From Streptomyces sp. NBC_01445 (GTDB lineage: Bacteria > Actinomycetota > Actinomycetes > Streptomycetales > Streptomycetaceae), in NCBI RefSeq assembly GCF_035918235.1, contig NZ_CP109485.1:4650001-4714000 (forward strand): a stretch of 64,000 nucleotides of DNA. The letters are read 5' to 3'. The notes below the pieces were generated by a model. It made no database searches. It was not told the DNA's origin and saw only the letters and a list, made by a program, of their open reading frames with translations. A program made the position numbers and the translations under genes. Shown here piece after piece: positions 8,976-47,486 of the stretch (its first letter is position 1; the number at the start of each line of letters is the position of its first letter).

Positions 8976-10152
8976 AACTTCCCACGGTAGCCCCTGCGGG
9001 AACGGCTCCCGTGCGCGCGAGGAGGTCGGCCAGCCGGTCGGTGACGGCCTCGGGGTGCTCCAGCATCACCAGGTGCCCGGCGTCGGGCACGAGCACCAGC
9101 TCGGCGTCGGGCAGCAGCCCGGCGATGGCCTCGCTGTGCTCACTGGGGGTGACGAGATCCTGGTCGCCGGCCAGGACGAGTACGGGGAGCTGCGCGAACC
9201 GCTCGATGGCCTCGCTCTTCTCGTGCTCCTGAAAGGCGGGGTAGAACTCGGCGACGACGTCGATCGGCGTGCTCTCGATCATGCGCTCGGCGAAGCGGGC
9301 GACGGCGGGATCGACGTCACGGGAGGCGAACGAGTAGCGCTTGATGATGCCGGCGAACAGGTCGGCGGTGGCGCGGCGCCCCTTCTCCACCAGGTCGGCG
9401 CGCTGGCCCAGAATCTTCAGGACGCCGGGGAGCACGCGCCGCACGGCGTTGACGCCGACCACGGGCAGCCCGTAGCTGACCTCGCCGAGCCTGCCGGAGG
9501 AGGTCCCGACGAGAGCGACGCCGACGACGCGCTCGGCCACGAGCTCGGGAAACTGGTCGGCGAACGCCATCACGGTCATGCCGCCCATGGAGTGCCCGAC
9601 GAGGACGAGCGGCCCTTCGGGGGCGGCTGCGTCGATGACGGCCTTCAGGTCGCGCCCGAGCTGGTCGATGGTGACGTCGGGCCCGCCGTCGGCCTGCTCG
9701 ACCCCGCGCCCCGACCGCCCGTGGCTGCGCTGATCCCAGTAGACGGAACGCACCACGCCCCGCAGGGCGGCACGCTGGAAATGCCAGGAGTCCTGGTTGA
9801 GGCAGTACCCGTGACTGAATACCACGGTGACCGGCGCGGGCGCCTTGCGACCGAAAAGCCGGAGTCTGCGAGGTGCGGCACCGCCCTCGGACTCCACTTC
9901 CTCGACCTCGTAATAGAGCTCGGTGCCGTCCCCGGCGTAGGCCTTGCCGGGGGTGCCGCGCAGGGACCCGAACGGGCCGGAGGCATCCAGCGCGAGCCGC
10001 GCCTTCCTGCGCATGCCGCGGCCGACGGTGAGCCGCTCGACGGCGACACCGGCCGCGGCACCGGCCGCGACGACGCCTATCGCGGCGCCGGCGAGCCCGG
10101 CGACCCGCCAGCTCGCGACACCCGCCGCGGCCTCGGCGCTGCTCTCACCCAC
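8947..10152 (-). CDS. Alpha/beta hydrolase, membrane-anchored
   Basis: This 401-residue protein has one N-terminal hydrophobic helix near residues 17-38 and then a hydrolase fold. The oxyanion segment is FSHGYCLNQDSW, the nucleophile elbow GHSMGG lies at 186-191 (Ser188), and the later acid (LAGDQDLVTP) and histidine (DAGHLVMLEHPE) complete a catalytic triad. The substrate is unknown. GTG at 10152 is chosen because GGAGGAG lies 8 bases upstream and the gene then overlaps the alr stop by a few bases; an upstream ATG at 10173 lacks such a site. It sits between alr and tsaE, a common actinobacterial order. Confidence 0.92.
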   Translation of the reverse strand: MGESSAEAAAGVASWRVAGLAGAAIGVVAAGAAAGVAVERLTVGRGMRRKARLALDASGPFGSLRGTPGKAYAGDGTELYYEVEEVESEGGAAPRRLRLFGRKAPAPVTVVFSHGYCLNQDSWHFQRAALRGVVRSVYWDQRSHGRSGRGVEQADGGPDVTIDQLGRDLKAVIDAAAPEGPLVLVGHSMGGMTVMAFADQFPELVAERVVGVALVGTSSGRLGEVSYGLPVVGVNAVRRVLPGVLKILGQRADLVEKGRRATADLFAGIIKRYSFASRDVDPAVARFAERMIESTPIDVVAEFYPAFQEHEKSEAIERFAQLPVLVLAGDQDLVTPSEHSEAIAGLLPDAELVLVPDAGHLVMLEHPEAVTDRLADLLARTGAVPAGATVGSYGDTAQPGS

Positions 10153-23140: not shown

Positions 23141-23218
23141 GGTGTTTCTCCTAGATGTCTGCCCCGGCCGTATCAGGTACCAGGGTCAGTGTCCGAGCGG
23201 GCGGATGCCCGTCGGAGA

Positions 23219-39063: not shown

Positions 39064-39457
39064 GGCTACTAGTAGTCCTGTCTCTCGAAACGCTCTGGAA
39101 CCTGGCAGGTCCTATTCCGTCCTCCTCCGACCCACGCGGTCGGGCGTGTCGCAGTCTCACTGACAGAAATATCCATACGGATTTCCCTGCTCGGGAGCTG
39201 CAGCCCTGGGACCGCGAAGCCGGGGGAAGAAACCCACCGGGCGCCTGGCTGAACGACCTCACTGCACTTCCCGGAAGATTCCCGTACGTCCGCCCTAGCG
39301 CTGCCTGCGGATCTTTCGACCTTCTGGCAGATGGGGCGACGAGTACTGTGGGACTCGCTTCCGGTCCTCCCGGCGGGAGGCGTGCAGCATCGGCACTCAA
39401 CCGAGCAACCCCGATAGTCTGCCACAGAGCGGCTGCGCCTGGCCAATCGAGCCGTAG
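39064..39457 (-). other. S10 operon leader region
   Basis: This is the predicted untranslated leader from the promoter at 39458-39485 to rpsJ. It contains the shared hairpin element at 39127-39151, AT-rich stretches near 39170 that could hold a second promoter, and an inverted repeat near 39230. I see no supported reading frame in it. Confidence 0.55.
39127..39151 (-). promoter_or_regulatory. Leader hairpin element shared with rpsL
   Basis: On the minus strand the element runs CGACACGCCCGACCGCG then TGGGTCGG. It forms a CCGACC/GGTCGG stem with a 5-base loop. Twenty-four of 25 bases match the rpsL leader element at 55892-55916. It lies 64 bases upstream of the rpsJ start codon. Confidence 0.65.
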
Positions 39458-39485
39458 AGAGTACCCCTGGGGTGACGAAGGTCAA
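39458..39485 (-). promoter_or_regulatory. S10 operon promoter, vegetative sigma type
   Basis: TTGACC (39480-39485), a 16-base spacer and TACTCT (39458-39463) on the minus strand fit an HrdB promoter and resemble the rpsL one (TTGACC/TACGCT). Confidence 0.7.
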
Positions 39486-39535
39486 ACCGGGGCCGGGCGG
39501 GGACCGCAGCCGAGGACCGACCCGCTCGGCGGGAC

Positions 39536-39742
39536 TCAGCGGGAAGCCGCGTCACCCCAGCCCTCCAGGAACCGGCCCAGCTGGTTGCGCAGCACGTCGC
39601 TACGGGCGTCTTCCGGCAGGTCGGGGGCGCGGGCCCTCAAGGGCCGCAGAACCTCCAGGGCGGCCGCTTCGCCGTCCTGCATGCGCCCGATGGTCGCCTC
39701 GCCGAACGTGTTCAGGCAGTCACGCAGGGACGTCCGCCACAC
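39536..39742 (-). CDS. Small hypothetical protein downstream of the Rhs immunity gene
   Basis: A 68-residue frame from GTG 39742 (TSLRDCLNTFGEATIGRMQD) is hydrophilic and helical in look, and ends GRFLEGWGDAASR. No clear ribosome site is present, so it may be the 3' remnant of a longer gene, possibly a second immunity gene of the toxin locus. The family is not recognised. The 39743-39871 gap shows no gene. Confidence 0.4.
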   Translation of the reverse strand: MWRTSLRDCLNTFGEATIGRMQDGEAAALEVLRPLRARAPDLPEDARSDVLRNQLGRFLEGWGDAASR

Positions 39743-39871
39743 CGTCCGGAGCGGGTCGGGAGGGGGCGGTCTAAGCAGGGCGCGATCCGCAGCCGCAGTA
39801 CGTCCTGAGGTGAGGTCGAGAGCCGCGGCCCGTGGACAGTGACGGCACCGAGTCTTCCATCGTCACAACTC

Positions 39872-40303
39872 TCAAGCATCATCAGCCAGGCGGGGGAACG
39901 AGGCCAGGGCGGCACCGAGGTCTGCCGCGGCCGAGTCCTCCGCAGGGAGAGCGAGAGCGAGTCGGTCGGCAGCGCGCAGGACCGCCTCACCCAGTTCGGG
40001 AGCGGACGCGCGAGCGATGACGCCGACCTTCGACGCGACGGACAGACCCTTCCTGGTACGCCGGAACACCAGCCCGAAGGAAGTGTCGACGCCGGTAAAG
40101 GAGAGGGTCCCGGCATCGCCGCGCAAGAAGTCGCCGAGGCTGTCCAGGAGTTGGGTCACGGAAAGGTAGATCATCATGCCTTGGTCGGGGGTGTGGCCGG
40201 CCGAGTCGGCCGTTCCGAGGTCCCCAGTGACAGACATGTCGCCCAGGTCGAACCCACTGGGTTCGCCCTGATCCGGCCGCACGGTGAACTGCACAGTGAT
40301 CAT
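39872..40303 (-). CDS. Candidate immunity protein for the Rhs toxin
   Basis: The 143-residue acidic protein (MITVQFTVRPDQGEPSGFDL, ending ALASFPRLADDA) has no recognised domain and no signal peptide, so it should be cytoplasmic. Its ATG shares a base with the Rhs stop codon (TGATG). A small acidic gene directly downstream of a polymorphic toxin is the classic position of the cognate immunity gene. That role is inferred from position and size only. Confidence 0.7.
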   Translation of the reverse strand: MITVQFTVRPDQGEPSGFDLGDMSVTGDLGTADSAGHTPDQGMMIYLSVTQLLDSLGDFLRGDAGTLSFTGVDTSFGLVFRRTRKGLSVASKVGVIARASAPELGEAVLRAADRLALALPAEDSAAADLGAALASFPRLADDA

Positions 40304-43300
40304 CAGGTGTGACTCTTTCCTACCGGGAAGAACGTGATGATGCGGTTTCCATCATCCGAGTCGACCACCAGCCGGTACCGGGCGCGCATTCCGTTGACGG
40401 TCATCCTCTTCTCAAAGGTTTGTATCCGGCGTGCCGGGTCCGACACTCGAGTGCCCTTTTCAATCATTGTCTGCGCGGCCTGCTCCACCTGGGGACGGGT
40501 GGTCGTCGGCGGCATGAGGTCGCCGTGGCCGCCGGCGGCGGTTCCCGCGATATGGCGCTCGTCGATGTGCTGCCAGCCCTCCTTGGTGTTCCCGTTCTCC
40601 AGCCTCGGGCCTGTGCGGCACAGCGCGAGTCCGTAGGGGTCTATCCAGGTGAGGGGGTGAGGGCCGTACCAGTACGGATTGGGCCCGGCCCCCAGGCCCA
40701 GCGGGTCGGGCGAGAAGTAGCGGCCGGTCTCACCGTCGTAGTACCGGAAGTAGTTGTAGTTCAGACCGGTTTCCGTGTCCGCGTACTGCCCCGGGAAGCG
40801 CAGGGGGCAGTCGACGGATGTGGAGTCGTTGGGGGCGGGGAGCGGGGTGCTCCAGAGCGTGGTACGACGCTGCCAAGTCAACTCACCTTCGGGGGACACC
40901 AGTTCGTTCGGCGTGCCGACGGCGTCGGTGATGACCGCATGAAAGCGAGTGGTGGGGTGGCACGTGGTCTCAGCCGCCAGTTTGATGAGGAAGGATCCGC
41001 TCGGGAGCGCTGTCCGGGGACTGCGGTCGGTCTGGGTGAGGGGGCGGTGCGTGCCTGGGGCGTAGTCCCAGGCGGTGACCCGGCCGTCGGGTGCCGTCTG
41101 TTCGGCCAGGCGCGCATCGTCCCAGGTGAAGTCCGTGCGGTCGGTGACCGAGCCGTCCTCCGCCATGCGGTACTTGGAGATGCGGCGGCCGAGCGGGTCG
41201 TACGTATATCCCCAGCACTCGCCGTCCGGCGTGACCGCCTGGGTCAGGCGGTCCTCCGCGTTCCAGGTGTAGGCCCAGGTCTGCTGCCGGCCGTTGAGGA
41301 GCTTGCGGGTTTTGCGGACCTGGCGGCCTTGGGCGTCGTGTTCGTAGGTGGTGTGCCCGGCGCGGCGGATGAGGGTGCCGTCGAAGGCGCGGTCTCCGGG
41401 CGTCTCGTGGGCCGGGGCCGTGGCATGGGTGAGGTTGCCTGCCGTGTCATAGGCGTACGTCTCGGTCCAGCCATGGGCATGTACGCCCGTGACCCGGCCT
41501 GTGGGGTCGAGGTCGAACTTCCGGGTGCCCGACGTGAGTTCGCGGATCTCGGTGAGGTACCCGTCGGCACGGTAGGCATAGGCGCGGTGCTGGAGGAGGC
41601 GGCCCGCCTCCCTGCCGCCGGGCGATGACGTCAGGGACTGGATGGTGAGGCGGTCGGCAGTGTCCCAGGCCTGGGCGAGTGTCACCTTCTCGCCGATGCG
41701 GCGGTGCGTCTCGCGCCCTGCCGCATCGTAGGCGAAGGTCAACGTCCCGGCGTCGGAGCGGAGTTCGGTGGCCCGTCCCGCCGGGTCGTACGTCCAGTGC
41801 GAGGTCAGTCCGGACGGGGTCGAGCGTCGAATGCGGCGGCCGAGGGCGTCGTAGGCGTAGGTGGTCGCCCGTCCGTTGACGGCCTCCGACAGCGTGCGGC
41901 CGAGAGCGTCGTACGAGGTGATGACGTCAGCGTCCGCGTTCGCCGCACGGATCAGTTCGCCCGCCGCGTCGTATTCGTACGTCGTCACCTCGCCCGAGTC
42001 GGTGCGCTGCTCGGTCACCCGGCCGAGCGTGTCCCGCGTGAAGCGCAGCGTCTCGCCGGCGCCGTTGGTGCGCGAGGTCACGCCGCCCGCCGCGTCGTGC
42101 GCGTAGGTCAGGGTGCGGCCGTTGAAGTCGGTCTCCGCGACCAGGCGCCCCGCCTCGTCGTAGCTGTAAGACCAGGTCAGGCCCTGGGGGTTGGTGACAC
42201 CCGTCAGCCGTAGTTCGGTGTCGTAGGCGAAGGCGTAGGTTGCGCCGTCGGAGTCTGTCCGGGTGGCGGGGACGTCGAAGTGGGTTGGGGTGTGGCGGGT
42301 GATGTGGCCTGCCTGGTCGGTGTGGGTGAGGAGGTTGCCCTCGCCGTCCCAGGTCCAGGTCTCGCGGGTACCGTCGGGGTGTTCGCGCCACTCGGGCTTC
42401 CCCTCCGTCGTCCACCCCGTGCGAGTGGTGTGGCCCAGAGGGTCGGTGACCTCTGCCACCCTGCCGAACGCGTCGCGGCGAACCACCGTGACGTGGCCGA
42501 GCTCGTCCGTCACGGTGATGGGCAGTCCGGCCGCGTTCGGCGTGACGCTTCGCGTATGTCCCAGTGCGTCCGTGACGGCGGTCAGGTGCCCGGACGCGTT
42601 GTAGACGATGCGGGTCCCGGCTCCGAGCGGATCGGACGTGGCAAGCAGATTGCCGAGTTCGTCGTAGGTATGGCGCCAGGTCGCCCCGCCCGGCTCGACG
42701 ACCTCCAGAGGCTGGCCGTGCGCGTTGTACGTCGCCCCGGCCACAGACCCGTCGGGCAGCGTGACCGCGATGAGGTGTCCGGCGTCGTCATGGCCGTAGC
42801 GCGTGGTGCGGCCCAGCGGGTCAGTGACGGTGAGCGGCTTGTCGCCGTGCTCGTCCCACTGGGTGCGTGTGGTGTGGCCGAGCTGGTCGGTCTCCTCCTC
42901 GACCAGGCCCTCAGCGTTGTACCGGTGTGTCGAGAGGTGGCCGAGCGAGTCGGTGTACGTGGTGGTGCGGGCGGCGTCGTCGTAGGCCAGGCTCCCGGAG
43001 AGGAAACCGTCGATGCCCTCGGTGCGGACGACCCGGCCGCGTGCGTCGTACTCGTACGAGAACCACGTCCCGTTGCGGTCGGTCCACTTGGTGACGCGGC
43101 CGTCCGAGTCGTACGTGAATCGCAGGGGCAGGTCGCTGGAGTTGATGACCTCGGTGAGGTTGCCCGCTTCGTTGTAGCCGTAGCGCATGACGGTCGTGCC
43201 GCCCTCGCGGGAGACGTCGGCCGTGTACGCGTCGGGGGCCCGGTCGAGGAGGCGCAGGGCCGTGATGCGTGGGCCGTCCGTGTCCACGGCGACGTAGTAG

Positions 43301-44580
43301 CCGCCGGAGTGGCGCAGGCCGACGGGGATGCCGTCGTCGTCGCGCTCCACGTCGATGCGCATGCCGTTGCGGTCGCTCCACGCGTCCACCGGCAGGTGGA
43401 AGACGCCGAACGAGCCGGACGGGAACGGGGTGGTGAAGGAGCGGGTGACTCCCGTGCCCGGGTCGGTGATCGTCATGACGCCGTCCGGCTTGCCGTCCCA
43501 CTCCAGCGGCCAGCGCGCACCCTTGACCGGCAGGGCGGGCACACCCGGCTCCGGGACCGGATAGACGAGCCTCATGCCGTCCGCCGCGGCGAACACGACG
43601 CCCTCGCCGTCGATCTGCACGCACTCGTCGAGTGTGGATATCCAGGTCGGGCCGAAGCAGACTCCCCCGCGGTACGACGACAGGTGGGTGCGCTGGAAGA
43701 GGAGAGGGAGGGACGCCGGCAGCGACAGGTCCGTCTGCGTCATCAGCATCGCGCCGGTCGCCACGTCGATCGGCTCGCCCACGCACGGTGTGCGCTCCGC
43801 CTTACGGGCGGCCGGGCCCAGCTCCACCAGGTCGGGGCGGAGCGACGGCGGGCGCAGCATCAGGGGCGTCGTGCTGGAGAACGCCCCCTCCATACCCGCC
43901 TTCAGAACGCCGCTGCCCGCGCCGAGCGCACCGCCGTAGAGCATGCCGTCCGTGGCTGCCTTGTTCACCTCGTCGAGGCTGAAGCCCTTCTGCAGACCGG
44001 TGATCATCTTCAGCGGCTGGGCGATGGCCGCGTCCACGGTTACCGATTCGACTCCACCGAACGCTGCCGCGATCAGGGTGCCGGCCGCGATCTCGGCGAC
44101 CGTCGCGGAGACGGCAACGCCCATGGTGGCGCCGAGCTCGATGATGACGTCGGCCGCCGCGACGGCCGCTCCTGAGGCCAGGCCCGCGGTGAAGAAGGCC
44201 AGTGCGACGCCGCCCGCGATCACGGCGGCGTCGATGCCGATCTGGGTCCAGAGTTTGTTGATCGCGTCGTCGATGGCGTCCGCGAACTTGTCGAGCGCCT
44301 TCGCCATCCCCCGCGCCGAATCGGCCAGGTCGCTCAGCCAGCCCGCGTCCTGGCCCTTGGCGTAGCGGCCCCAGAACTTCTCGAACGCCTCGATCGACTC
44401 ACCCTTGTTGTGATGGATGAGGGAGGACGCGCTCTTGTGCGCCGGTGCGCGTACGTCGTCGACGGCGTCGGCGAAGGTCCGCCAGGCAGTGGCCGCGGAG
44501 CGCAGGGAGTCGGCGTCGGCGTCCGGCCACCACAGGCCCAGGTGCAGGAGGATCTTCTTTGCCTCGTCCTCGATGCTCAC
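40303..44580 (-). CDS. Rhs/YD-repeat polymorphic toxin with CpnT-like N-terminus
   Basis: This is a 1425-residue protein. Residues 1-110 form a WXG100-like helical module (LGLWWPDADADSLRSAATAW), similar to the CpnT N-terminal domain used for type VII export. Residues 115-180 are hydrophobic and Ala/Gly-rich. Residues 265-345 match DUF6531 (GEPIDVATGAML, LPLLFQRTH). Dozens of YD repeats (for example TYDSDGRVTKWTD, YDALGRRI) follow, then the Rhs core end (YYDGETGRYFSPDPLGLGAG, WIDPYGL). The last 107 residues, from about 1319, are a distinct tail with GWQHIDERHIAG and a beta-rich end, probably a BECR-like ribonuclease toxin. GTG 44580 overlaps the WXG-like gene stop (GTGA), and the immunity gene follows with TGATG. 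It is likely secreted for interbacterial competition. Confidence 0.92.
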   Translation of the reverse strand: MSIEDEAKKILLHLGLWWPDADADSLRSAATAWRTFADAVDDVRAPAHKSASSLIHHNKGESIEAFEKFWGRYAKGQDAGWLSDLADSARGMAKALDKFADAIDDAINKLWTQIGIDAAVIAGGVALAFFTAGLASGAAVAAADVIIELGATMGVAVSATVAEIAAGTLIAAAFGGVESVTVDAAIAQPLKMITGLQKGFSLDEVNKAATDGMLYGGALGAGSGVLKAGMEGAFSSTTPLMLRPPSLRPDLVELGPAARKAERTPCVGEPIDVATGAMLMTQTDLSLPASLPLLFQRTHLSSYRGGVCFGPTWISTLDECVQIDGEGVVFAAADGMRLVYPVPEPGVPALPVKGARWPLEWDGKPDGVMTITDPGTGVTRSFTTPFPSGSFGVFHLPVDAWSDRNGMRIDVERDDDGIPVGLRHSGGYYVAVDTDGPRITALRLLDRAPDAYTADVSREGGTTVMRYGYNEAGNLTEVINSSDLPLRFTYDSDGRVTKWTDRNGTWFSYEYDARGRVVRTEGIDGFLSGSLAYDDAARTTTYTDSLGHLSTHRYNAEGLVEEETDQLGHTTRTQWDEHGDKPLTVTDPLGRTTRYGHDDAGHLIAVTLPDGSVAGATYNAHGQPLEVVEPGGATWRHTYDELGNLLATSDPLGAGTRIVYNASGHLTAVTDALGHTRSVTPNAAGLPITVTDELGHVTVVRRDAFGRVAEVTDPLGHTTRTGWTTEGKPEWREHPDGTRETWTWDGEGNLLTHTDQAGHITRHTPTHFDVPATRTDSDGATYAFAYDTELRLTGVTNPQGLTWSYSYDEAGRLVAETDFNGRTLTYAHDAAGGVTSRTNGAGETLRFTRDTLGRVTEQRTDSGEVTTYEYDAAGELIRAANADADVITSYDALGRTLSEAVNGRATTYAYDALGRRIRRSTPSGLTSHWTYDPAGRATELRSDAGTLTFAYDAAGRETHRRIGEKVTLAQAWDTADRLTIQSLTSSPGGREAGRLLQHRAYAYRADGYLTEIRELTSGTRKFDLDPTGRVTGVHAHGWTETYAYDTAGNLTHATAPAHETPGDRAFDGTLIRRAGHTTYEHDAQGRQVRKTRKLLNGRQQTWAYTWNAEDRLTQAVTPDGECWGYTYDPLGRRISKYRMAEDGSVTDRTDFTWDDARLAEQTAPDGRVTAWDYAPGTHRPLTQTDRSPRTALPSGSFLIKLAAETTCHPTTRFHAVITDAVGTPNELVSPEGELTWQRRTTLWSTPLPAPNDSTSVDCPLRFPGQYADTETGLNYNYFRYYDGETGRYFSPDPLGLGAGPNPYWYGPHPLTWIDPYGLALCRTGPRLENGNTKEGWQHIDERHIAGTAAGGHGDLMPPTTTRPQVEQAAQTMIEKGTRVSDPARRIQTFEKRMTVNGMRARYRLVVDSDDGNRIITFFPVGKSHT

Positions 44581-44945
44581 CGGGAACCCTCGCTGTCGGC
44601 GCCGTCCTTCGGGGGCTTCACCTTGGTGAACATCCCGGCAATGAGGTCGTCGTTGTCCACGTGCCCGTCGGACAGGTCGACCAGCGCCTCGTGGATGCTG
44701 GTCAGGCCGAGGACGAGGATCCCCGTGGAGCTCTCGATCTTCTTCTGCTGCGGCGAGTAGACGTCCCCGAACTCCTTGCCCTGCTTGTCATCGCCCCAGG
44801 GCTTGCCCAGGTTGTCCAGGGTGGTGACGAGGGTGGTGAGTGCCTTGCTCAGATTCTTGGCCTGCTCGTGGAACACCGGCGCCGAGGCCTTGATGTCCGC
44901 GGTTTTGATGTCCAGCACCATGCCGTCGCCGTTGCCGTCACTCAT
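44577..44945 (-). CDS. WXG100-like (Esx-type) small helical protein
   Basis: The 122-residue protein has an amphipathic helix, a central WG turn (Trp50-Gly51 in LGKPWGDDKQGKEFGDVY), and a second helix, the helical-hairpin layout of Esx/WXG100 proteins. A charged tail follows. It has no signal peptide. It overlaps the Rhs start by 4 bases, so both are made together. It may be a type VII export partner or chaperone of the toxin. The space upstream (44946-45074) probably holds the promoter. Confidence 0.75.
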   Translation of the reverse strand: MSDGNGDGMVLDIKTADIKASAPVFHEQAKNLSKALTTLVTTLDNLGKPWGDDKQGKEFGDVYSPQQKKIESSTGILVLGLTSIHEALVDLSDGHVDNDDLIAGMFTKVKPPKDGADSEGSR

Positions 44946-45074
44946 GCGCTGCCGTTCCCCCGTCGTTCGCGCGTGCGACTCATGACCCTAGGGGAGTCGG
45001 TTCAAGGGAAGGTCAATCCGTCACCATGGAACGGCAATAGGCCAGTGGAGCCAGGGAGCTGTGCCGGTCTCGGC

Positions 45075-45419
45075 TCAGCCCAGGTGCCAGAGCGCGTACG
45101 TCGCCACGAGCAGGATCAGCCCCGCGAACGTCATGAGAGCACCCAGGAACCGGAGATAGCCCACCGACCCGAAGACAGTGGTCGGCGCGGCGTCCAGCGC
45201 TCCCGGCATCCCCAGGATCCCCGCGTTCCTCTGCCGGATCCGCTCGGACCGTCGGGTGGTGATCCCCCGCACGTCGAACGCCCAGTTCACCCCGCACCAC
45301 AGGCAGACGAGGCCGGCGAGCGAGAAGATGGCGAGGACGACGGGCGACGGCCCGTGGACCCCTGCGGCAAGTACTGACACGTCAGTCAAGGTCGGATTCT
45401 TTCGAACGGTCCGGGGCAC
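45075..45419 (-). CDS. Two-helix membrane protein, unknown function
   Basis: The frame of up to 114 residues has hydrophobic segments PVVLAIFSLAGLVCLWCGVN and FLGALMTFAGLILLVATYAL around an Arg-rich loop (GITTRRSERIRQRN). The start is uncertain: GTG 45419 gives the longest form, while GTG 45380 would begin VSVLAAG; neither has a strong ribosome site. It is upstream of the toxin trio on the same strand and could be co-transcribed. Confidence 0.6.
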   Translation of the reverse strand: MPRTVRKNPTLTDVSVLAAGVHGPSPVVLAIFSLAGLVCLWCGVNWAFDVRGITTRRSERIRQRNAGILGMPGALDAAPTTVFGSVGYLRFLGALMTFAGLILLVATYALWHLG

Positions 45420-45521
45420 CGGAGTGGTGGAGCAGCCAGGGCATGGCTGAGTGATCGTTGCCCTCCATGGTGACGATCACCTCGCGGTACGTCGAATCCC
45501 CCAGCCGACAGGGACGACGAT

Positions 45522-45731: not shown

Positions 45732-46600
45732 GTCTCTCCCAGCAGTTGCTCGATGAAGGCCAGGGTCTCCCGTGGCGAGAGAGCCTCAGCGCGGATGATG
45801 CCAAATCGCAGTTCAAGGATCCGCAGCTGCTTCGAGTCGCTCACAGGGCGACCTCCGAACGCCCCTTCAGAGCGCCCCACGGCCGTACCGTCCTGGAACT
45901 TCAGCACCTCGATCTTCCCGTCCATACCGGGATGAGCCTCTCGGCGAGTAGGCATCACCTGAAAGGTGACATTGCGCAACTGCCCGACCTGCAGCAGGTG
46001 TTCGAGCTGTCCGCGCCACTCCATTGTGCCTCCGATGGGGCGCCGGAGCGCCGACTCCTCTTGTACGAAGCTCAGGGCAGGGGCGGATGGCCGCCCGAAG
46101 ATCGACTGCCGAGCCATGCGAGCCGCCACGCCATGCTCCACCTCATCCTGCGAATACGCAGGCTGCCGAGCCTCGAACAACGCCCGTGCGTGCCCCGGCG
46201 TCTGCAACAGCCCATGCAGGCCGTGCGCCACGTAGACCCCGATCTCGACGGCCCGCGCCTCCATGCCCGCCAGATCCCGCACCTTCTTCGGATACCGAAC
46301 CTCCGCCACGTCCGGTTTCATCGCGGCGATGAGCCCGCCCGCCCCCAGCACCTCGTCCGCCCTGTCCAGGTACTCCGACCTCGGGATCCGGCGGCCCGCC
46401 TCGACCTTGTAGACCAGGTCCTCCCCGTACCCGATGGCCGCCCCGAACTCGGCCGCCCGCAGCCCGGAGGCCTCCCGCTGCAGCTTCAGCTGCCGCCCCA
46501 CCATCGCCACGACGGCCGCGCCCTGCTCGTCGTCCGGATCCACCTCCCACCCGGGTTCATCCGCCCCATTGCTTACCACCTGCACTCGATCCACGCTCAC
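45728..46600 (-). CDS. WhiJ-like helix-turn-helix regulator (XRE plus DUF5753)
   Basis: The 290-residue protein has an N-terminal XRE-type helix-turn-helix near residues 30-85 (LKLQREASGLRAAEFGAAIG, GEDLVYKVEAGRRIP) and a C-terminal DUF5753 domain (QTPGHARALFEARQP, LLQVGQLRNVTFQVMP). GTG 46600 has GGAGG 9 bases upstream on minus, which decides the start over longer readings. With the coupled DUF397 gene and the divergent ATPase it forms a standard Streptomyces WhiJ/AbaA-type locus, usually involved in development or antibiotic control. It probably also acts in the 46601-46766 divergent region. Confidence 0.93.
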   Translation of the reverse strand: MSVDRVQVVSNGADEPGWEVDPDDEQGAAVVAMVGRQLKLQREASGLRAAEFGAAIGYGEDLVYKVEAGRRIPRSEYLDRADEVLGAGGLIAAMKPDVAEVRYPKKVRDLAGMEARAVEIGVYVAHGLHGLLQTPGHARALFEARQPAYSQDEVEHGVAARMARQSIFGRPSAPALSFVQEESALRRPIGGTMEWRGQLEHLLQVGQLRNVTFQVMPTRREAHPGMDGKIEVLKFQDGTAVGRSEGAFGGRPVSDSKQLRILELRFGIIRAEALSPRETLAFIEQLLGET

Positions 46601-46766
46601 CCGCGCCCACCTCCGACGTACCGCTGCCGCACCCCGCGCATCGACGACCCCTACCCGTACGACCCCTCTGGACAGCCCGGACACCACTGGACAAGCTCCG
46701 GACAGTCACCGTACGTACCGGCGTCGTCACTTTTCACGCTATGCGTGCGCGGCCACGCTGAGTGAC

Positions 46767-47330
46767 GTGAATCTGGAATCCGCCCAACTCTCCTGCCCCG
46801 CGCGGCACTTCAGGGTCCTTCTCTCCCCCACGCCGCGCGGCGCCCGCCTCGCGCGCCTACTGGCCGTCGAGTGGCTGCGGTGCCGTGACCTGCCGTACGG
46901 GGTCACGGACGCGGCCGAGCACGTCGTCGCCGAGCTCGCGGCGAACGCCGTCGCCCACGCCCGCCTGCCCGGCCGCGACTTTCTCGTCGTGCTCCGCGCC
47001 GACATTCACGTACTCCGTATCGAGGTGACGGACACCAGGGGCGACAGACTCCCGCCCCTTACGCGACAACCACCCGCCCCCGGCGCCGAATCCGGGCGCG
47101 GCCTGTTCCTCGTCGAGGCGCTGGCCGATCGCTGGGGCGTCGCGGAGGGACCCGTTCCACGTAAGACGGTGTGGGCGGAACTGGATCTCGTACGACCGGA
47201 GCTCGTGAACGCGGGCTCCGGTGCTCCATGCGACAACCCCAAAGGAACAACGGACGAGGAAAAGGAACCGAGCCAAGCCCCACCTGCCCCGCCGTCGGCA
47301 GCCGCCCGGACCACTCACTCACACAGGTGA
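46767..47330 (+). CDS. Anti-sigma-factor-like ATP-binding protein (HATPase_c_2)
   Basis: The 187-residue protein has the GHKL N box VVAELAANAVAHARLPGRDF and the G box GRGLFLVEALADRWGV, as in RsbW/SpoIIAB-like kinases of WhiJ-type loci. A disordered tail rich in Ala, Pro and Glu follows residue 140. GTG 46767 is the best start; the ribosome site is weak. It is divergent from the HTH gene. Confidence 0.9.
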   Translation: MNLESAQLSCPARHFRVLLSPTPRGARLARLLAVEWLRCRDLPYGVTDAAEHVVAELAANAVAHARLPGRDFLVVLRADIHVLRIEVTDTRGDRLPPLTRQPPAPGAESGRGLFLVEALADRWGVAEGPVPRKTVWAELDLVRPELVNAGSGAPCDNPKGTTDEEKEPSQAPPAPPSAAARTTHSHR

Positions 47331-47486
47331 ATGTCGCCAACTCGGCTGGCCAAAGCCCCTGTTGACTGCCATACGCTCAGCGCGAGACCCCAGCATTCAA
47401 AACAACCGCAGACATGCGACGGCCCCCGGCCGGGACTCGCAATCCCGATCGAGGGCCTGACCACCGAGGAAGAATCGAGCTTCCCG

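Follow-up and report, generated by a model that had tools for sequence, protein, structure and literature searches.

A probable polymorphic toxin cassette for ESX export upstream of rpsJ in Streptomyces sp. NBC_01445, with a WXG100-like partner tied to the N-terminal module of an Rhs protein

What do a small helical protein, a very large Rhs protein and a second small protein do together upstream of the ribosomal protein gene rpsJ of Streptomyces sp. NBC_01445, and by which route would the Rhs protein leave the cell? The three genes lie in a stretch of 64,000 nucleotides (nts; contig NZ_CP109485.1, positions 4,650,001 to 4,714,000), hereafter the window, which belongs to a genome of 11.47 Mb in two contigs. 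A sequence-only reading of the window had proposed a dedicated competition system exported by type VII secretion, in which a free WXG partner is coupled to an Rhs toxin in fixed stoichiometry. The present analysis indicates that the genes quite probably constitute a polymorphic antibacterial toxin cassette for ESX (type VIIa) export. The part of the earlier proposal that concerns type VII export gains from the ESX genes of the genome and from the linkage of the partner to the N-terminal module of the Rhs protein, while the fixed coupling and the pairing with Rhs as such did not survive. The cassette contains the following features, in the order of transcription:

44577..44945, minus strand: WXG100-like partner, a putative toxin-specific targeting factor or escort of 122 amino acids (aa) with an ATG start (list of open reading frames, ORFs; recurrent partner family; predicted hairpin)
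40303..44580, minus strand: Rhs polymorphic toxin of 1425 aa, with a GTG start within the GTGA overlap (ORF, Pfam, NCBIfam, sequence)
44155..44532, minus strand: WXG100_2 domain, residues 17-142 of the Rhs protein, core of a conserved N-terminal delivery module of residues 1-260, the N-module below (Pfam PF25547, 41.9 bits; alignment)
43561..43779, minus strand: DUF6531, residues 268-340, the entry to the Rhs shell (Pfam PF20148)
40627..40818, minus strand: Rhs-associated core domain, residues 1255-1318, the end of the part conserved in relatives (NCBIfam TIGR03696)
40306..40626, minus strand: variable C-terminal toxin domain of 107 aa, the tail below, a probable EndoU/BECR-type ribonuclease (RNase) (weak EndoU_bacteria matches; invariant residues)
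39872..40303, minus strand: putative cognate immunity gene, the third gene, of 143 aa with an ATG start (gene linkage to the tail)

The three ORFs are all present on the minus strand as the sequence-only reading had described them, and so are both junctions, where GTGA holds the overlapping partner stop and Rhs start, and TGATG the Rhs stop and third-gene start. The WXG module that it had ascribed to the Rhs protein was recovered by Pfam above the cut-off of 27, together with DUF6531 and 20 RHS-repeat stretches. Promoter and terminator scans returned 0 and 0 sites (shuffle means of 0.3 and 1.9, respectively). Tight, conserved translational coupling is ruled out by the variable junctions of eight homologous partner/Rhs pairs, in which the genes overlap by 4 nts in three cases and by 11 nts in three others and lie 23-24 nts apart in the remaining two, with Rhs start positions taken from homology; the fixed stoichiometric coupling claimed earlier is not supported. 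In a paralogous locus of the same genome, the partner overlaps the toxin gene by 4 nts.

The partner was found to be tied to the N-module and not to Rhs. A scan of named genomes gave nine loci, in all of which partner and N-module sequences are adjacent (the L021 pair being broken) and eight of which carry an Rhs core. Among 150 genomes of the genus, the own genome included, the partner profile gave 27 strong matches (≥89 bits) in 22 genomes, and every one of them lies upstream of an N-module match on the same strand, with a gap of -2 to 166 nts and one broken pair (G068). Conversely, such a partner accompanies 26 of the 27 N-modules scoring ≥160 bits, and because homologous pairs recur, the association is not due to chance. 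Fourteen of the 27 strong N-modules reside in open frames of more than 1300 aa and the other 13 in frames of 224-553 aa, which leave no room for an Rhs core, so the partner goes with the N-module. The idea that it belongs with Rhs as such, on which the earlier pairing depended, is ruled out by these short ORFs. For this count, 71 of 73 partner rows were used, the two omitted (78.0 and 74.3 bits) being further fragments of loci that were in the count, and 81 listed N-module rows were used, comprising all 27 of ≥160 bits and weaker ones picked by hand; hence the figure of at least 26 of 44 weak partner matches that also lie upstream of a divergent N-module is a lower bound.

The family extends further, since an order-wide draw contained a partner match (E≤0.001) in 100 of 391 genomes and in 8 of 10 genera. 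Partner and N-module diverge in parallel (Mantel r 0.80, 0 of 5000 permutations, 30 pairs, without L021 and L043, which are too short), a result that co-inheritance alone would also give. The own-genome paralogue (L094, at 2.377 Mb of contig 1) has a partner 53% and an N-module 51% identical to those of the window, on a toxin of 422 aa (within C1:2373000-2383000) that combines WXG100_2 with a CdiA-CT RNase A domain (90.9 bits) and has no Rhs match. Elsewhere in the genome, a broken remnant of the same N-module is found at C1:9063778 (L007). A 519-aa WXG100_2 protein is present in identical-scoring copies at C1:144219, C1:10288774 and C2:144217 (L004-L006). The first two lie close to either end of contig 1, as though terminal repeat sequence of the chromosome were also carried by contig 2.

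The type VII system on which the earlier proposal depended is present in the genome, which encodes EccC (884.5 bits), EccB, EccD, EccE and three mycosins over the cut-off, one of them adjoining EccB. One EsxA-like WXG100 protein, with W-x-G and a C-terminal YxxxD, was also noted, no search having been made for a second Esx protein. None of 14 control genomes exceeded the EccC or mycosin cut-off, and, judged by E-values, all 22 cassette carriers are outside the group of 11 genus genomes that fall under the EccC cut-off. In at least 19 of 79 N-module-positive genomes, divergent cousins of the N-module lie 2.6-40 kb from an EccC gene over the cut-off, a lower bound obtained by picking EccC neighbours by eye among the matches listed. 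Genome G114 has a small PWGDD-containing ORF about 650 bp upstream of the N-module, on the EccC side and with another ORF between them; Pfam gave no match for it at E≤0.01.

As to the partner itself, six of ten homologues match Pfam WXG100 at E≤1 (best E 6.7e-4) and three of ten match WXG100_2 (best E 0.0065). Its model is a helix-turn-helix hairpin (helices 15-45 and 54-92, with W50 in the turn) of low confidence (predicted local distance difference test, pLDDT, 55; predicted template modelling score, pTM, 0.36), and the top eight PDB matches of this pLDDT-55 model are WXG100 proteins, at E 0.24-0.63. The structural likeness to WXG100 proteins expected from the earlier reading is seen in the predicted hairpin and in the identity of the top matches and is lacking in model confidence and E-value; the earlier reading was refuted neither by this comparison nor by the search for type VII genes. 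A central W-x-G motif is the mark of the WXG100 family in the available text of PMC11217815. The WXG motif that had been attributed to the partner is missing, none of ten partners carrying a literal W-x-G and P-W-G-D-D standing in its place. Since it has no W-x-G, a sub-cut-off Pfam score and a low-confidence hairpin model, the partner is named WXG100-like and not a member: it is WXG100-like in predicted fold and outside the family by the definition tested.

Several observations weigh against export by the ESX route. EccC exceeds the cut-off in 139 of the 150 genus genomes, so that its presence, shared by nearly the whole sampled genus, counts as weak evidence. Among the matches listed, no member of the close subfamily was seen beside EccC, only divergent cousins, and a close subfamily encoded there is unsupported. 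YxxxD/E is the secretion motif of an ESX (type VIIa secretion system, T7SSa) substrate or of its partner; it was found in none of 10 partners and in 1 of 11 N-modules (residues 1-150), at the mid-domain residue 73 of a protein other than that of the window, and a literal W-x-G is absent from residues 1-150 of the N-module. The partner scores 14.6 bits against Pfam WXG100 (cut-off 27.3), and its pLDDT-55 model has no PDB match under E 0.24. A sequence search of the PDB with the partner profile gave a single, chance-like match, the Rop protein (E 0.071), and one with the N-module profile gave nothing at E≤1.

The lack of YxxxD/E and of a literal W-x-G in the partner, and the distance of about 1.1 Mb that separates the ESX genes from the cassette, would also suit a small protein acting as a cytosolic chaperone, or as a folding or encapsulation partner of the N-module, with the Rhs protein leaving by another route or by lysis. 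This is improbable, given the N-module cousins near EccC in at least 19 genomes, the PWGDD ORF on the EccC side of the G114 module (itself without a Pfam match), the assignment of the N-module to WXG100_2 and the hairpin predicted for the partner.

With ESX export retained as the preferred explanation, the remaining question is what would be delivered. The Rhs protein was divided into query pieces at residue 1318, and BLAST matches to the core shorter than 300 aa (named relatives) or 200 aa (tail and third-gene loci) were not displayed. Among the eight named relatives with an Rhs core, the tail (87% identical) and the third gene (72%) were matched only in L014; in the other seven neither query gave a match (E≤1e-3) and other ORFs follow the Rhs gene. 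A full-length Rhs ORF is present in seven of nine named relatives, and their tails vary. The window's protein thus reads as an Rhs-type polymorphic toxin, with a conserved N-terminus and core and an exchanged C-terminal domain.

All five members of the tail family match EndoU_bacteria at E≤1 (best E 6e-4), the window's own tail doing so at E 0.079 and 13.8 bits, under the cut-off of 25.3. In the alignment of five homologues, H20, H25, T98, F99, F100 and P101 are invariant. The available tables of PMC3482391 give the pattern "H, H, [ST], FP" for the Tox-Barnase row of the BECR RNase group, and H20, H25, T98 and F100-P101 fit this loose pattern when read by eye. The tail model (pLDDT 61) contains one helix and three strands and, which counts on the other side, has no PDB match at E≤0.001; Foldseek returned nothing convincing, with two toxin/immunity entries of contact-dependent inhibition (CDI) systems at probability 0.54 amid unrelated folds. 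The tail is probably an EndoU/BECR-type RNase, on weak evidence; an RNase that needs no metal ion is the favoured reading, at somewhat better than even odds.

For the 143-aa protein, searches of Pfam, NCBIfam and PADLOC gave nothing at E≤1, and its putative role as cognate immunity protein derives from gene linkage. Across 392 genus genomes, the tail was matched in six (the own genome included; G108 weakly, G174 as a partial and broken copy) and the third gene in 26, a few of them weak. The third gene lies directly 3′ of the tail in L014 and in four of the five other tail-positive genomes (G318, G246, G277 and the broken G174). The exception is G108, where a tail match of 22.6 bits has no third gene, a point that tells against the proposed pairing. 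In G246, the same tail type and third gene occur on an Rhs protein with a different N-terminus (Pfam T7SS_signal), and no partner match was obtained over the 9 kb read there. In G033, a partner/Rhs cassette with a different tail is followed, some 500 bp past the Rhs stop, by a third-gene homologue of 72% identity. Tail and third gene form a second unit, and tails are exchanged between loci.

It is unlikely that the third gene is a passenger linked to the locus and not a cognate immunity gene. Homologues without a tail match occur in 21 of the 392 genomes, as a passenger would, but the gene adjoins the tail in L014 and in four of five other tail-positive genomes, even behind the different Rhs N-terminus of G246, and orphan immunity genes have been described in Listeria type VII secretion system (T7SS) loci, as far as the available text of PMC10327511 goes.

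A genome with the same species label, G161, shows the third gene persisting where the toxin is absent. In its rpsJ/EF-Tu interval, the third gene is kept as an open frame of 89% identity and is preceded by a stub of about 50 nts of the toxin 3′ end. DNA comparison leaves about 40,354-44,975 of the window without a counterpart at this locus, and in the protein comparison a match of 47 aa spanned the stub (E 0.009), the other pieces being at chance level; a partner match was absent from the genome search, and there was no tail match. A third gene with a stub and without partner or Rhs is therefore as expected of immunity genes kept after toxin loss. Two neighbours of the third gene resemble genes downstream of other cassettes: a fragment is related to that of L015 (48% over 106 aa), and a small ORF is weakly similar to that of L018 (24% over 54 aa, E 4e-4). 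Read by eye, both have paired cysteines. The same G161 locus holds a 306-aa ORF whose C-terminal half has a degraded counterpart in the window, possibly an older immunity gene:

39436..39807, minus strand: remains of a further ORF, now degraded (aligned with the C-terminal half of the G161 ORF at the same locus, 56% over 149 aa)

Very unlikely is the idea that the Rhs protein is a surface protein for kin recognition or development, or else a selfish element in decay that its immunity gene maintains: its patchy spread (22 of 150 genomes), the broken copies (C1:9063778, G068 and L021) and the missing toxin of G161 would fit, but the reading frame in the window runs uninterrupted for 1425 aa, full-length Rhs ORFs with varied tails persist in seven of nine named relatives, and 14 of 27 strong N-modules lie in frames of more than 1300 aa.

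For the toxin cassette, we infer a complex, its export, an RNase activity and protection as follows. Most likely, the partner binds the WXG100-like N-module of the Rhs toxin, and the two together would make a composite signal for the EccC machine. The Rhs repeats, which form a shell around the C-terminal toxin in known Rhs structures according to the available text of PMC10327511, would enclose the ribonuclease-type warhead, and the third gene would encode the immunity protein that guards producer and kin. Warhead and immunity gene may be swapped as a unit by recombination, partner and N-module staying as the delivery unit. A bolder and rather doubtful extension is that a single private partner and a WXG100_2 N-module constitute a portable streptomycete ESX delivery unit without YxxxD/E and W-x-G, passed among warheads with and without Rhs, the warhead/immunity pair of the window also riding on a partner-free T7SS_signal module (G246), both just upstream of the S10 operon. 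If this were true, the signal by which EccC recognises complexes of toxin and partner would be a new one.

The cassette is co-directional with rpsJ, about 0.8 kb upstream of it and outside the S10 operon, and the G246 Rhs protein is also encoded directly upstream of rpsJ. Together with G161, this suggests that the site is recurrent (three genomes). One further gene lies upstream of the cassette and may travel with such cassettes:

45075..45419, minus strand: small membrane-protein-like gene (in L014, L015 and L091 its homologues lie downstream of where the third gene would be; association only)

A 148-bp stretch of the window in the start region of this gene (45362-45509) is doubled in G161, at L085 8098-8245 and about 9457-9604, one copy adjoining the toxin stub, and the doubling is possibly a recombination scar. 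About 0.7 kb of the window (46353-47069) is missing in G161, which cuts a DUF5753 regulator gene and the ORF 46434-47330, an ATP-binding protein when read by eye. The end of this ORF is overlapped by the Rfam Streptomyces small RNA scr4677 (47214-47486, 123.2 bits), and an Rfam L17 ribosomal-protein leader lies at 23159-23215 (67 bits).

Systems of this kind are already known in other bacteria, and the window holds a well-supported new example. Judged by titles and the starts of abstracts, no experimental study of a Streptomyces Rhs/partner pair was among the open-licence papers listed (for two listings, 15 of 41 and 12 of 47); the comparisons that follow likewise refer to the available parts of each report. 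The 2012 survey of WXG and RHS polymorphic toxins (PMC3482391) has tables that hold T7SS (WXG) delivery, RHS repeats and BECR-fold RNases, actinobacteria included, and in these parts the window's partner and tail are not described. The LXG toxins with dual targeting factors (PMC9600955) are alike in that small targeting factors are needed for T7SS export, but they belong to T7SSb and use two factors where the window has one. In Listeria, LrhA with LxpABC (PMC10327511) is a DUF6531-Rhs toxin with a helical N-terminus and small WXG100-type partners upstream, and the locus also has a candidate immunity gene downstream, with orphan immunity genes in relatives; however, it is a T7SSb system with three partners, next to essC, whereas the window has one partner, far from eccC, and a T7SSa. 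The prophage toxin/immunity cassettes of M. abscessus (PMC8092301) share gene order and logic, an actinobacterial background and a proposed type VII export, but the toxin is of about 50 kDa and prophage-borne, while that of the window is a 1425-aa Rhs protein whose surroundings were not searched for a prophage. Finally, the AaEAS locus of Amycolatopsis (PMC12691689) has a targeting factor, then a T7SS-associated toxin, then a small ORF that is likely an immunity gene, the toxin being an LXG-type alarmone synthetase without an Rhs shell, unlike that of the window. The cassette thereby extends the escort/toxin/immunity arrangement of mycobacterial prophages, Amycolatopsis and Bacillota to the large Rhs toxins of streptomycetes. 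It also provides an experimentally amenable soil host for the question of how a T7SSa picks out so large a toxin when the usual signal motifs are missing from its partner.

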